NCBI RefSeq assembly: GCF_900112205.1
Contig: NZ_FOKW01000009.1
Span: 62,001 to 126,000 of the forward strand
Source of the DNA: Natronobacterium haloterrestre
GTDB lineage: Archaea; Halobacteriota; Halobacteria; Halobacteriales; Natrialbaceae
DNA: 64,000 nt
Direction: 5' to 3'
The translations under genes were made by a program, and so were the position numbers. Positions 23,833-45,272 of the stretch are shown piece after piece; the stretch's first letter is position 1, and every line of letters begins with the position of its first letter. The notes under the pieces were generated by a model. The model was given only the letters and a program-made list of their open reading frames with translations, was not told the DNA's origin and searched no databases.

Positions 23833-24025
23833 GTCCGTCGGTGGGAGGCGGCGAGCCGAAAAGCCACCGTTTCGCCGTCGACGCCACGCGCCGAGGTGCC
23901 GCAGCGTGTTCGGCGTTCGGGTCGCCGGAATCGACGGACGGCGGGTAATCCAGCAGGCGATGTGAACTACGAACAGCGGACTATTTCGACACCCCCTCGC
24001 CGTACCGGGGTTTGTCGGAACAAGA

Positions 24026-24033
24026 TTTATATA
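24026..24033 (+). promoter_or_regulatory. TATA box of the HSP20-like/cdc48 operon
   Basis: TTTATATA, the strongest TATA element seen in the window, lies about 35 bases before the ATG at 24065, in a locally AT-rich stretch. It should give a leader of only a few bases and a strong promoter. Confidence 0.7.
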
Positions 24034-24064
24034 TTAGAAGTGCTTACGTTGAGTTAGTATCAAA

Positions 24065-24313
24065 ATGAATCTCGAACAATTCACCGGTAGTGACGGGCAA
24101 CCGGCCCGCCGGTACGAGTACGACGACGGCGTGGTCTTCGCCGTCGACTTCGGCCCCGAATTCGGGGACGCGGCGGTCGATCTCGTCGAGGACACCGTCA
24201 TCGTCGTCGTCGACGAAGATCAGTACGAATTCGAGCTCCCCGACGGTGCAGGCGACGCGCATACGTTTATCAAAAACGGCGTACTCACTGTCGAACTGGA
24301 GGGCGATCTATGA
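24065..24313 (+). CDS. Small alpha-crystallin-like protein coupled to Cdc48 (82 aa)
   Basis: An acidic, beta-rich 82-aa protein. Its C-terminal part reads YEFELPDG, then [16 protein letters not shown], which closely follows the end of the HSP20/alpha-crystallin fold (ELP followed by xNGVLTV). It lacks the flexible termini of a full HSP20 chaperone. It matches a haloarchaeal DUF family (DUF7127-like, by recollection). It overlaps the cdc48 start by four bases (ATGA) and shares its promoter, so it is probably made in fixed proportion to Cdc48 and could be an adaptor for it. Confidence 0.88.
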
Positions 24314-40230: not shown

Positions 40231-41742
40231 ATGACCGATACCACGTTCGACGCCGACGGCATCACGCTCGAGAAAGTGCGTGAGTACGTCTGGGAGATCC
40301 CACAGGAGGGGAACATGCGCACTCCCGCGCGGGTGCTCGCGAGCGAAGCGCTCCTCGAGGAGATCAAGGAGGACAAGACACTCGAGCAGATCAAGAACAC
40401 GACCCACCTGCCGGGGATCACGAACCACGCGATCTGTATGCCCGACGGCCATCAGGGCTATGGCTTCCCCGTCGGCGGGGTCGGCGCGCTCGACGCCGAG
40501 AACGGCTGCATCTCGCCGGGAGCGGTCGGCTACGACATCAACTGCGGCGTCCGGATGATGCGGACGAACCTCACCTACGACGAGCTCCAGGGACGTGAGG
40601 AGGAGCTCGTCGACTCGCTGTTCGCCAACGTTCCATCGGGGCTTGGCGGCGGCGGCATCGTCGAGGCCGGGGTCGACACCGTCGACGAGATCCTGGAGCG
40701 CGGGGTCGACTGGGCCCTCGAGAACGGCCACGCGGTCGAGGAGGACCTGCTACACTGCGAGGACGAGGGAGTCCGCGCCGAGGCCGACGCCTCGAAGATC
40801 TCCCAGAAGGCCAAAGACCGCGGGAAGAACCAGATCGGCTCGCTTGGCTCGGGCAACCACTTCCTCGAGGTCCAGCGCGTGACCGACGTCTTCGACGACG
40901 CGGTCGGCGACGCCTACGGGCTCGAGGAGGACCGGATCGTCGTCCTCATCCACTGTGGCTCGCGCGGGCTGGGTCACCAGACGTGTAACGACTACCTGCG
41001 GAAGATCGAACAGCAACACCAGGGGCTGTTGAACCAACTGCCCGACAAGGAACTGGCCGCGGCACCCGCGGGCTCGCAACTCGCGGCGGACTACTACAAG
41101 GCGATGAACGCCGCGATCAACTTCGCGTGGGTCAACCGCCAGCTGATCATGCACCGTACGCGGCAGGTGTTCGAGCGGGTCTTCGACCGCTCGTGGGAGG
41201 AGATGGAGATGGAGCTCCTGTACGACGTGGCCCACAACATCGCGAAGAAAGAGACCCACGCCGTCGGGGTCGGGCCGGAGGGCCGACCGGTGCGAGACGG
41301 CGACGCCGTCGAGCGCGAGGAACGCGAGCTCTACGTCCACCGCAAGGGCGCGACTCGAGCGTTCCCCGCGGGTCACCCCGAGGTGCCGAAAGCGTACCGC
41401 GACGTCGGCCAGCCGGTCATCATTCCCGGCAGCATGGGCGCGGGCAGCTACGTCCTGCGGGGCGGCGAGAACTCGATGGATCTCACGTTCGGCTCGACCG
41501 CCCACGGCGCGGGCCGGCTGATGAGCCGCACGCAGGCCAAAAACGAGTACTGGGGCGGCGACGTCCAGGACGAACTCGAGCAACAGGAGCAGATATACGT
41601 CAAGGCCCAGTCGGGCGCGACGGTCGCCGAGGAGGCCCCGGGCGTCTACAAGGACGTCGACGAGGTCGTCCGCGTCTCGGACGCGCTGGGCATCGGGGAC
41701 AAGGTCGCACGGACGTTCCCGGTCTGTAACATCAAAGGCTGA
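40231..41742 (+). CDS. rtcB: RNA-splicing ligase RtcB
   Basis: RtcB (503 aa) joins 2',3'-cyclic phosphate and 5'-OH RNA ends, completing tRNA splicing in archaea. Conserved blocks include GAVGYDINCGVRMM (metal-binding Cys), GSGNHFLEVQ, HCGSRGLGHQ, and the guanylylated histidine in STAHGAGRLMSR. The length is that of an intein-free archaeal RtcB. Its activator, archease, is encoded at 37872. Promoter elements are not obvious upstream. Confidence 0.97.
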   Translation: MTDTTFDADGITLEKVREYVWEIPQEGNMRTPARVLASEALLEEIKEDKTLEQIKNTTHLPGITNHAICMPDGHQGYGFPVGGVGALDAENGCISPGAVGYDINCGVRMMRTNLTYDELQGREEELVDSLFANVPSGLGGGGIVEAGVDTVDEILERGVDWALENGHAVEEDLLHCEDEGVRAEADASKISQKAKDRGKNQIGSLGSGNHFLEVQRVTDVFDDAVGDAYGLEEDRIVVLIHCGSRGLGHQTCNDYLRKIEQQHQGLLNQLPDKELAAAPAGSQLAADYYKAMNAAINFAWVNRQLIMHRTRQVFERVFDRSWEEMEMELLYDVAHNIAKKETHAVGVGPEGRPVRDGDAVEREERELYVHRKGATRAFPAGHPEVPKAYRDVGQPVIIPGSMGAGSYVLRGGENSMDLTFGSTAHGAGRLMSRTQAKNEYWGGDVQDELEQQEQIYVKAQSGATVAEEAPGVYKDVDEVVRVSDALGIGDKVARTFPVCNIKG

Positions 41743-41775
41743 GGCGGTGACGTGAGTCGTCGCCGAACGATCGGC

Positions 41776-43137
41776 TCACGAGTCACGAAGCGCCTGCCGT
41801 GCGATGGTGCGTGCCGTCGAGGCGTCGAGTTCGTCGAACGTCTCGTCTTCCTCGAGCGTCTCGAGGACGGCCTCGACCGGCTCGGTGAACGTGAACATCA
41901 GGTGGACGCCACTTTTGAACCCGCCGCTCGTCCGCTCGCTCTCGAGGACGCCATACGTGCCCGCCTTGTTGATGTGGCTGTTGACGGTCTCTTGGGTATA
42001 CACGTCCCGGTCAGTGCGTTGGCAAATCTCTCGATACAGCGCGTAGACCGCTGGACTCGGTGCAGCGCCGTCGTTTACGTCAGCGACCACTGCCGCAGCG
42101 TACAGCGAGAGTTTCTTCTGGAGCGTCATCCCGCCGACCATCTCGAGCACGCGGTTCTTCACGACCGAATCGTTGGCCGCGTGGACGTGTTGTTCCGTGA
42201 CGACCGTCTCTCCGTTTCTGTTTGCGATCTCGCCCGCGTCGCGGAGCAGATCGATCGCTCGCCGTGCGTCGCCCTCGTTTTTGGCCCCGTAGGCAGCCAC
42301 CAGTTCGATGACGCCGTCGTCGAGCGCGCCCTCTTTGAACGCGTCACGCCGACGGTTGAGGATCTCGATGAGTTCGTTGGCGTCGTAATCCGAGAAGTGA
42401 ATGCCGGTCGGATTGTACGAACTATCGGTCCTGCTGTCGAGGTTTTCGCGGAACTTGGGGTGGTTCGTGATCACGACCGTCGAGACGAGCGTGTCGACGT
42501 GTTGTTCGGCCATCACCCGGCTCAGGCTGTAGAGCAACCGGGAGTACGCGGGCTCGTCTTCACCGACGCGGCCGGTGAGCGCGTCGATTTCGTCGAGGAT
42601 GAACACGAGCGCGTCGAAGTGACGGTCGACGATCTCGTAGAGCCGAACGTATTTCGCATCGGTGGAAACGCCCTTTCGCGGGATACCCCACTCGACGCCG
42701 GCTTTGTTGGCTGTCTGATGGCCGAGTTTCCAGACGGCGCGATCCAGCGAGTGTGACTCCATCGTCTTGAAGTTGACTGCGACGAAGTCGAAGGTGATGT
42801 CGTTCTGAGTGGCACGTTCCGAGACCTTCTCGGCGACTGCTTTGACCGTGAGGCTCTTGCCGGTGCCGCTCGGTCCGTAGAGGAGGAGATCCGGGGGGCG
42901 TTCGCCGTCGAGGGTGTCGCGAAACGCGCGCGCTTCGGCGGCCAGTTGTTCGTCACGGCCGTAGATCCGGTTGTGATCGACGATCGTGTTGGAGTCGACG
43001 AGTTGCTTGTTCTCGAAGACGGTTCGTCGTTCGCCGTCGAGAATACTATCGACGATAGACGAGCCGGGGGAGTCCGCCGTCCCGTCATCGTCTTCGCCGC
43101 CTCGACCATCCGAGGACTCCTGTTTCATTGGCGGCAC
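41776..43137 (-). CDS. Orc1/Cdc6-family replication initiator
   Basis: A 453-aa initiator. The AAA+ part has Walker A YGPSGTGKSLTVKAV, Walker B VFILDEIDAL, and sensor regions such as VVITNHPKF. The C-terminal winged helix (about 350-440) includes TQETVNSHINKAGTYGV. It binds origin boxes and loads MCM. The promoter side of this gene opens directly onto the repeat-rich origin at 43163-43707, the usual arrangement in haloarchaea. It is the only orc1/cdc6 in the window. Confidence 0.95.
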   Translation of the reverse strand: MPPMKQESSDGRGGEDDDGTADSPGSSIVDSILDGERRTVFENKQLVDSNTIVDHNRIYGRDEQLAAEARAFRDTLDGERPPDLLLYGPSGTGKSLTVKAVAEKVSERATQNDITFDFVAVNFKTMESHSLDRAVWKLGHQTANKAGVEWGIPRKGVSTDAKYVRLYEIVDRHFDALVFILDEIDALTGRVGEDEPAYSRLLYSLSRVMAEQHVDTLVSTVVITNHPKFRENLDSRTDSSYNPTGIHFSDYDANELIEILNRRRDAFKEGALDDGVIELVAAYGAKNEGDARRAIDLLRDAGEIANRNGETVVTEQHVHAANDSVVKNRVLEMVGGMTLQKKLSLYAAAVVADVNDGAAPSPAVYALYREICQRTDRDVYTQETVNSHINKAGTYGVLESERTSGGFKSGVHLMFTFTEPVEAVLETLEEDETFDELDASTARTIARQALRDS

Positions 43138-43162
43138 TGCTCACCGGCCCTCAATACCTTTT

Positions 43163-43444
43163 TCGAAATGAATGGACCTCGGTCGAAATGAACAGTCCAT
43201 GACCGAAATGAACAGTCCATGGTCGAAATGAAGCGGAACTACCGCCGACGCCGAAACGAAGACACCGTTGTCGAACTGAACGTCGGGACGACCGTCATCG
43301 AAATGAAAGCCCCGTGTCCGAAATGAACCTCGAGCGAACCGGAGTCGAAATGAATGCACCGTAATCGAAATGAAATGACTCGTATCCAACTGAAACCGAT
43401 CGATGGGGAAGATCGTACCACTCCCCCACCGTAATCGAAATGAA
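43163..43444 (+). repeat. Phased array of origin boxes (TCGAAATGAA)
   Basis: Boxes start at 43163, 43183, 43203, 43223, 43251, 43271, 43298, 43318, 43345, 43365, 43385 and 43435. Spacing is 20 bp within groups and 27-28 bp between groups. Core variants are CCGAAATGAA, CCGAAACGAA, TCGAACTGAA and TCCAACTGAA. Several copies carry an extension, CACCGTAATCGAAATGAA. Presumed Orc1/Cdc6 binding sites. Confidence 0.9.
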
Positions 43445-43544
43445 ACGGAGAACGGGACGTGTTATGCGGAGGGTGAACTGGTGAACGAGAAGTGCTGAAC
43501 GGAGTCTGAAACGGAAAACGAGAGACGCCGACCGGGGGTTCGAC

Positions 43545-43707
43545 ACCGTATTCGAAATGAATTCTCGCCCCACTCGTACTGGAACCTGATTTTCTCCCGT
43601 CTATACTGCTATACTCGACGAAATGCTGCTCCTCCACTCGAATTTCATTTCGAATATGGTGTGGGAGACCGATCTTCTAGATGCTGCTGAAAGAGATTTC
43701 ATTTCGA
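43545..43707. repeat. Inverted extended origin boxes flanking a possible unwinding element
   Basis: CACCGTATTCGAAATGAA (43545-43561 region) faces two inverted copies: TTTCATTTCGAATATGGTGTG (box 43644-43653) and TTTCATTTCGAATGTAGTGTG (box 43698-43707). The two inverted copies are 54 bp apart. Convergent extended boxes around an AT-richer centre are typical of archaeal origins. Confidence 0.85.
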
Positions 43708-43838
43708 ATGTAGTGTGAGGGAGGTCCCTGGTAAGGGGGACCGTCTCGAGGGGGAACGAAACCACGACGGGCGAGCGAGCTAGCAGTTCGCAAGCCGACT
43801 GGCTCGTTCCAGGACCGATCCGTCCCATCCACACTGTA

Positions 43839-44060
43839 TCACTTCAGCCGAAACGGATTCCCGTCGTCCTCGTCCGCGTCGTCCTCGTCGTCATCGCCTT
43901 CGTAGGGCCGTCGCGCCGTGATCGTCACCGTCGCCTCCGGATCGTCCTCGTCGGCCCATGGGCTGTCGTAGGCCGAGATCTCGAGGTCCGTTACGTCCCA
44001 TCCCTCCGCTTCGATGAGTTCGACCAGCCGGCGCTGGTCCGCGAGCATCTCGTCGTCCAT
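43839..44060 (-). CDS. Small acidic protein of unknown function (73 aa)
   Basis: Starting at the ATG at 44060 the protein reads [20 protein letters not shown], then [19 protein letters not shown], a [10 protein letters not shown] strand, and a very acidic tail. The pattern (one helix, a few strands) suggests a small alpha/beta protein. Longer in-frame starts upstream run into the moaA promoter region and are not favoured. It separates the origin from moaA and has no recognised family. Confidence 0.72.
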
Positions 44061-44184: not shown

Positions 44185-45177
44185 ATGCTCACCGACGAGT
44201 TCGGACGCGAAGTAACGGGGGTTCGCGTCTCTCTTACCGACCGGTGTAACTTCGACTGTGTCTACTGCCACAACGAGGGGCTGGGCGACACGCGGGGGCC
44301 GATGGACCCACAGGACGACGAGATGGACACCGACGACGTCGTCCGCTTTCTCGAGGTCGCGGCCGAGTTCGACGTCGACGCCGTCAAGTTCACCGGCGGC
44401 GAGCCGATGCTCCGTCAGGATCTCGAGGAGATCATCGCACGAACGCCGGACGAGATGGAGGTCTCGCTGACGACCAACGGGACCTTCCTCCCGGGCCGCG
44501 CCGAGGACCTGGTCGACGCCGGCCTCGAGCGGGTCAACGTCTCCCAGGACGCACTCGATCCCGAGGACTTCGCCGCCGTCACGCAAAGCGGCGCGTACGA
44601 GAAGGTCCTGGAGGGCGTCGAGGCCGCCCTCGAGGCGGGGCTCGATCCCGTGAAGCTCAATATGGTCGTCTTCGAGCACACCGCGGGCTACGTCCCGGAG
44701 ATGGTCGACCACGTCGCCGAGAACGAGGGGCTACAGCTCCAGCTCATCGAGTACATGCCGGAGCTCACCGGTCGGCCGGAGTGGAACATCGACATCCAGC
44801 GAGTTCACGACTGGCTCGCCGACCGGGCCGACGAGATCGAGCACCGGGAGATGCACGATCGGCGACGCTACTGGGTGAGCGGAGAGGACGGCGACGCCGG
44901 AACCGGGATGGTCGAGATCGTCGATCCCGTCGAAAACCCCACCTTCTGTGCGAACTGTCACCGCGTTCGGGTAACCCACGAGGGCTATCTCAAGGGCTGT
45001 CTCAACCGCAACGACGACCTTCGCTCGATGGGGGAGATGACCAAACCCGAAATCCGCGAGGCGTTCCGCGAGACCGTCGAAAACCGCGTCCCCTACTACG
45101 GCGAGTATATGATCAGGAACGGCGACGGCGAGTGGGAGATCAACGAAAAGTACCTCGAGGAGTCGGTACGAGCCTAG
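44185..45177 (+). CDS. moaA: GTP 3',8-cyclase MoaA
   Basis: MoaA (330 aa) is the radical-SAM enzyme that starts molybdopterin synthesis. The N-terminal cluster is in [14 protein letters not shown] (CxxxCxxC), the SAM region in [12 protein letters not shown], and the second [4Fe-4S] site in [19 protein letters not shown]. The usual C-terminal Gly-Gly is absent; the protein ends in EESVRA. ATG 44185 gives the normal family start [10 protein letters not shown]. Other moa genes are not adjacent. Confidence 0.95.
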
Positions 45178-45182
45178 AGCCG

Positions 45183-45272
45183 ATCGGTCGAACGTCCCGC
45201 TACGACTATCGACATCGGTCGAGTGCCCCGCTACGAGGAACTAGTCGGTCGAACACCCCGCTACGACTATCG
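45183..45272 (+). repeat. Three imperfect 30-bp direct repeats
   Basis: Copies starting at about 45183, 45214 and 45243 share CGGTCGA, a variable trinucleotide, then CCCGCTACGA. They fill the whole space between the convergent ends of moaA and the DUF7519-like gene. They may serve as terminator-like or protein-binding repeats; no function is evident. Confidence 0.8.

Follow-up and report, generated by a model that had tools for sequence, protein, structure and literature searches.

A candidate Orc1/Cdc6-ORB replication origin, specific to its adjacent initiator, in Natronobacterium haloterrestre

The region upstream of an orc1/cdc6 gene of N. haloterrestre is, taken as a whole, best explained as an Orc1/Cdc6-ORB origin of chromosomal replication that is specific to the adjacent Orc, a reading to which we assign a probability of roughly 0.85. 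It lies in a stretch of 64,000 nucleotides, referred to below as the window. The pairing of the boxes with this Orc, their ORB class, the outward polarity of the core, the conserved spacer, the geometry of the array and the mobility of the cassette can all be read from the sequence comparisons reported here. The first-pass annotation of the window had called the site an Orc1/Cdc6 origin, for which the intact neighbouring orc and the family-wide boxes and core layout speak, while firing is a prediction from sequence.

The initiator gene occupies 41776-43137 on the reverse strand, with a likely ATG at 43128, and encodes an AAA+ protein with Walker A and B motifs, a Cdc6 lid and a C-terminal winged helix. 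Its product scores 346.8 bits against TIGR02928 (cutoff 181.3), matches Pfam Cdc6_lid and Cdc6_C, and has PDB relatives in 2qby_A and 2v1u_A; an origin of the Orc1/Cdc6-ORB type should have just such a gene, with its AAA+ and winged-helix domains, beside it. No relative of this Orc was found in the phage collection. The locus is not the canonical haloarchaeal oriC1, as the orthologue of Sulfolobus Cdc6-1 (53-54% identical) sits on contig C13 with its own ORBs, nor is it an iteron-type plasmid origin with a Rep-type initiator, given the assignment to TIGR02928. The canonical Orc1 gene (L009 / L006, contig C13, 292147-293805) is interrupted in frame by some 440 bp of inserted sequence, which may be an intein.

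The window contains 10 copies of the box string TCGAAATGAA, where chance predicts 0.05, and all of them lie inside 43163-43707; the genome (4.5 Mb) holds 14 exact copies, 10 of them within these 700 bases, and the same pattern read backwards, used as a control, has no copy genome-wide. A position matrix trained on 20 homologous upstream regions, so that the completeness of the box set depends on this same family, finds 14 boxes of at least 9 bits in the window, 12 forward and 2 inverted, and a held-out matrix, with the window and its three closest relatives left out of training, places 13 boxes here above 12 bits. Beside the gene, and supported by copy counts and both matrices, lies a group of four boxes at 20-bp steps (43163-43232, starts 43163, 43183, 43203 and 43223), on the forward strand in the first-pass spelling and on the reverse strand in the ORB sense discussed below. 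The forward boxes continue with a variant pair at 43251-43280, comprising a weak box at 43251 (CCGAAACGAA, 9.0 bits) and one at 43271 (TCGAACTGAA, 21.0 bits), with two pairs at 20-bp steps, one found by the matrix at 43298-43327 (starts 43298 and 43318) and one by copy count and matrix at 43345-43374 (starts 43345 and 43365), and with an isolated box at 43435-43444 (26.3 bits) that has a C-run, the G-string in the ORB sense, on its outer side. Further out, a forward left core box at 43552-43561, among the highest-scoring at 31.5 bits, faces an inverted right core box on the reverse strand at 43644-43653 (31.6 bits), and an outer inverted box follows at 43698-43707, likewise on the reverse strand and supported by copy count and matrix. 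The array of about fourteen boxes described by the first-pass annotation is thus real, its spacings of 20, 28, 27 and 27 bp are all correct, and the two inverted copies are confirmed; its list of starts, however, included 43385 (TCCAACTGAA), which we reject as a box at only 1.1 bits with the held-out matrix, and omitted 43552-43561, the actual left-hand partner of the inverted pair. A recent tandem duplication of the 47-bp pair unit was considered and rejected: three successive units within the window are identical at 27-30 of 47 positions, mostly box positions, so the spacing is preserved while the sequence drifts.

Although the core of these boxes had been thought to lie outside the usual haloarchaeal ORB type, this is not so when they are read on the opposite strand, where the consensus TTTCATTTCGAAAACGGTGTG matches 15 of the 20 positions of the published Halobacteriaceae ORB expression (P=0.0003), taken from PMC4164010 (Ori-Finder 2). 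The consensus in the original orientation matches 11/20 (P=0.26), which is chance level, and one single site fits that way too. In the ORB sense the repeats therefore fit the haloarchaeal motif as those of an Orc1/Cdc6-ORB origin should. TTTCATTTCGAAAACGGTGTG moreover aligns ungapped with TTTCACTCTGAACGAGGGGTG, the boxes next to a different Orc of this genome (14/21, P=0.0003), and has a TTTCA..GAA..GG.GTG skeleton in common with them. Read in this sense, the core boxes direct their G-string ends away from the centre; the canonical oriC1 of the same genome (TCCACTTGAAACGAAGGGGTGGGGG) has outward G-strings as well, as have the family B origins inspected. The outer-side C-run that corresponds to the G-string is present in 22/27 inverted, 8/13 left-core and 40/65 other array boxes, in an interrupted form (GGTGTG). 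The opposite-strand match and the outward G-strings together argue for a family-specific ORB with a reduced G-string and against a new kind of box; by these alignments, the boxes are ORBs in a family-specific spelling that has diverged from the known initiator box. The lesson is that an ORB read on the wrong strand can appear non-standard. A G-run stands on the other side of boxes 1 and 2 in most species, which makes the polarity of these promoter-proximal boxes uncertain; it is of the GGGGGTG type, lies in opposite orientation in the spacer between the two boxes (window 43173-43182 and equivalents), and is absent from the window itself. A strong-weak-weak-strong pattern of affinity within the 20-bp runs was also tried (total score 22.6 versus 15.8; core alone p=0.086), and since the difference sits in the flank, namely in spacer 1 with its opposite-orientation G-run, we make no affinity claim. 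A literature search with the box string found no haloarchaeal paper among the matches listed.

Between the convergent core boxes lies a putative duplex-unwinding region (43562-43643), suggested by low stability and a conserved gap. The stability of 80-mers starting at 43561-43651 is 2.8-3.7 sd below the window mean, and the centre at 43571-43730 is among the least stable DNA in the window (z up to 3.7), whereas its plain A+T content of 0.47 equals the 0.48 of the array. The AT-richer centre of the first-pass annotation hence holds as low stability and fails as composition, the spacer being no richer in A+T in this genome; it is by stability that the inverted ORBs enclose the kind of spacer expected of an Orc1/Cdc6-ORB origin. 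The lowest nearest-neighbour stability in the window is found at 23981-24100, below that of the origin. The box-to-box gap of the core is 97 bp in the window, 94-97 bp in most relatives and 85-87 or 59 bp in a few, and the two inverted boxes are 54 bp apart in the window and 54-57 bp in most relatives (69 is one of the exceptions); at some related loci the left core box scores under the matrix threshold. Isolated extra convergent pairs with near-identical gaps (95, 84) occur outside the main origin in two genomes (L083, 3623(+)/3718(-); L075, 3605(+)/3689(-)).

The claim that this Orc and this origin form a specific cognate pair is borne out by their distribution. Homologues of the Orc, 72-99% identical, occur in genera of the Natrialbaceae and in Haloferax, Halorubrum, Haloarcula and Haloquadratum, and directly upstream of those examined (more than 35 loci, covering at least five haloarchaeal genera) we find the same boxes in a fixed layout, in which a 20-bp-step array beside the gene leads to the convergent core and then to a second inverted box further out, with diverged spacer sequences. 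A close homologue is present in 20 of the 293 genomes of the order, and each of the 20 has a box array next to the homologue. The strict 20-bp tandem pattern also occurs in 20/293 genomes, 16 of which are common to both sets (P=2e-19, from loci that are phylogenetically related, so that the counts are not independent), and in the remaining four Orc genomes the boxes are found by the matrix. At 23 loci of the next Orc family (44% identical) the present box is absent and GAACAAATCGATAGGGGTG stands in its place, and nine other Orc-match loci in the same genome lack the present box too; the winged helix is 44% identical between the Orc families and 76-96% within them. Because the boxes are kept with this Orc and other boxes accompany distant Orc families, the reading of a cognate pair is well supported by sequence, and it agrees with work on other haloarchaeal origins (PMC3936714, PMC3528665), at which cognate ori-cdc6 specificity, as well as titration by an ORB-rich region, is experimentally established (PMC3936714). 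Four genomes have box arrays without this Orc (L084 2689-2960, L085 2287-2674, L086 2755-2775 and L087 2702-2742), from which it follows that an array alone is no proof of an active origin. The array of L085 has the complete origin geometry, with a 95-bp core gap and a 20-bp array, while the other three lack a complete core; candidate readings are that these orphans are relics, decoys or borrowed origins. Their neighbours include an integrase, close to L084, and a resolvase, close to L086.

Gene and origin appear to travel together. They occupy 41743-43838, between rtcB (40231-41742, forward strand, PF01139) and a small conserved ORF (43839-44060, reverse strand) that precedes moaA (44185-45177, forward strand, TIGR02668). 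In 10 related genomes the rtcB-moaA interval holds neither the Orc gene nor the boxes, and the small ORF is kept in 10/10 of them. On the left, homology of these empty sites to the window ends at about 41742: nine of the genomes give 41738-41746, and G055, where the alignment is weak, gives 41764. On the right it picks up again at 43839-43892 (43839 in four), and the rtcB-moaA gap measures 482-526 bp in four empty-site genomes versus 2.4-3.3 kb with the cassette. In two genomes (G154 and G205) the same orc and origin lie elsewhere while the rtcB-moaA site is empty, and in other genera the cassette is found in other contexts, sometimes on megaplasmids. The empty sites and the relocated copies indicate that the segment behaves as one insertable cassette, and by this comparison orc and origin are an exact 2.1-kb insertion that moved as a unit between genomic sites. 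Just after moaA, at 45183-45272, are three copies of a 31-bp tandem repeat (GGTCGAAC-CCCCGCTACGACTATCG). Haloferax/Halorubrum oriCb adjoins an rRNA operon; around the Haloferax, Halorubrum and Haloarcula loci examined, Rfam finds no rRNA out to about 4 kb, and an identity with Haloferax oriC2/oriC3 that we considered is not established.

A well-built ori-orc cassette inserted in a lineage might also be a dormant or decaying origin, normally silent and used only once the others are gone. Dormancy does occur among predicted haloarchaeal origins built in this way: it has been shown in Haloferax mediterranei for origins with intact ORBs and cdc6 (PMC4595724) and suggested in H. hispanica (PMC3528665). 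The patchiness of the cassette (20/293 genomes) would fit this, as would the lack of a skew signal at the site, where cumulative GC skew along the 224-kb contig has no clear turning point, although that measure is uninformative. Box spelling, spacing and promoter fusion are, on the other hand, strongly conserved across genera despite the diverged spacers, and orc is intact, which indicates selection for function. We hold dormancy to be unlikely here, while treating it as a serious rival to firing in vivo.

The end of the array nearest the gene suggests how orc itself may be controlled. Box 1 is fused to a TATA-like element (43152-43172, reverse strand; TTCATTTCGAAAAAGGTATT when read along orc), placed some 24-44 nt ahead of the likely ATG of the gene, and at every listed orc-linked locus it continues into a sequence of the GGTTATTA/GGTATTG type about 30 bp before the likely start codon. 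In the four orphan arrays, from genomes without the Orc, an ordinary box end takes the place of this part, and its restriction to orc-linked loci suggests that it serves orc transcription. An Orc molecule on box 1 would compete with transcription factors, which suggests repression; judging from position, both autorepression of orc and titration of its product by the array are plausible. One could accordingly suppose that the array only regulates or titrates orc expression or the initiator level, with replication starting at another locus, given that the orc promoter is overlapped by box 1, that orphan arrays occur without the Orc, and that the ORB-rich region beside H. hispanica cdc6E is a negative regulator without origin activity (PMC3936714). 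Titration would not, however, need a convergent core with a conserved low-stability spacer of 94-97 bp, which is standard origin anatomy and which three of the four orphans lack in complete form, and we consider a purely regulatory role improbable.

The 20-bp step of the array had suggested that the initiator could sit on one face of the helix. Of 165 intervals between adjacent boxes at homologous loci, 79 measure 20 bp and a single one is shorter (19 bp), and the boxes of a four-box group span no more than about 100 degrees at 10.5 bp per turn, so boxes inside the 20-bp groups are nearly in phase. This does not extend across groups: steps of 27-28 bp are about half a turn out of phase, so that the groups rotate, a Rayleigh test of the window's ten array boxes at 10.5 bp/turn yields R=0.15, and spacings other than 20 bp have no 10.5-bp periodicity (Rayleigh, all adjacent spacings; R=0.18, p=0.17). 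Placement of the whole array, or of a filament, on one face is thus unsupported. A nucleoprotein filament in which two turns per box align all Orc protomers and which drives origin opening would account for 20 bp as the commonest spacing and for the near-phasing of four-box groups; it is at odds with both Rayleigh results and with an array that adjoins the gene and not the spacer, and we judge it very improbable. Since 20 bp is also the length of one ORB, end-to-end packing of Orc monomers explains the step without any appeal to a helical face and is the simpler reading. Another Orc of the same genome (L003, 943-1416) has ORB-like boxes (ATACAGCGG..GGGGTG) at steps of 31-32 and 63 bp, close to three and six helical turns, and is a better candidate for helical phasing.

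Returning to the Orc-specific origin that we favour, its working can be sketched from what is known of Orc monomers: their binding to ORBs is polar, and they guide MCM to the DNA in between (PMC12141716). Orc monomers would bind the core ORBs with fixed polarity and recruit MCM into the 95-bp spacer, making the core the firing site from which bidirectional replication would start. The tandem ORBs, seen at exact 20-bp steps up to and into the predicted orc promoter, would hold further monomers end to end, one per 20-bp box, and so titrate Orc, while occupation of box 1 would repress orc; titration and repression together could tie the initiator level to the number of free boxes. More speculatively, the locus may be an iteron-like archaeal controller, in which Orc fills the 20-bp ORBs cooperatively from anchor boxes, the last box is the operator of the orc promoter, occupancy sets both orc transcription and firing, and orphan arrays are decoys or origins of Orc-borrowing elements; we regard this extension as rather doubtful. 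The locus offers a compact test case for how multi-origin archaea keep each origin under its own initiator: it has a single orc with a single box spelling, a geometry that holds across genera, a 2.1-kb cassette whose limits are precise and whose empty sites are known, and an initiator promoter to which one of the boxes is fused.

Among known systems, bacterial plasmid iterons are 20-22-bp direct repeats beside an initiator gene that serve autoregulation and copy control; the present array would resemble them in its working, and is not one of them, its initiator being Orc1/Cdc6 and not Rep. Sulfolobus oriC1 (ORB3-DUE-ORB2, Orc1-1) likewise has two inverted ORBs around a DUE, about 100-130 bp apart and each binding one Orc monomer with polarity (PMC12141716); our locus differs in ORB spelling and in having many more boxes. 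Haloarcula hispanica oriC2-cdc6E, with its ORB-rich oriC2D, is similar in placing many ORBs of one initiator beside its gene and in the proposed initiator titration and negative control (PMC3936714), except that oriC2D is downstream of cdc6E, whereas the array described here is upstream, between gene and core. Closest in general plan are the haloarchaeal orc/cdc6 origins (Wu et al. 2012, PMC3528665; PMC4164010), in which the origin also lies in the intergenic region upstream of orc and which share the inverted ORBs around a low-stability spacer, the family-specific ORB-Orc pairing and the movement of ori-orc units between sites. Compared with the origins described there, the present one appears to be set apart by a G-string reduced to GGTGTG-type ends, by the 20-bp tandem array and by the promoter-fused box 1.
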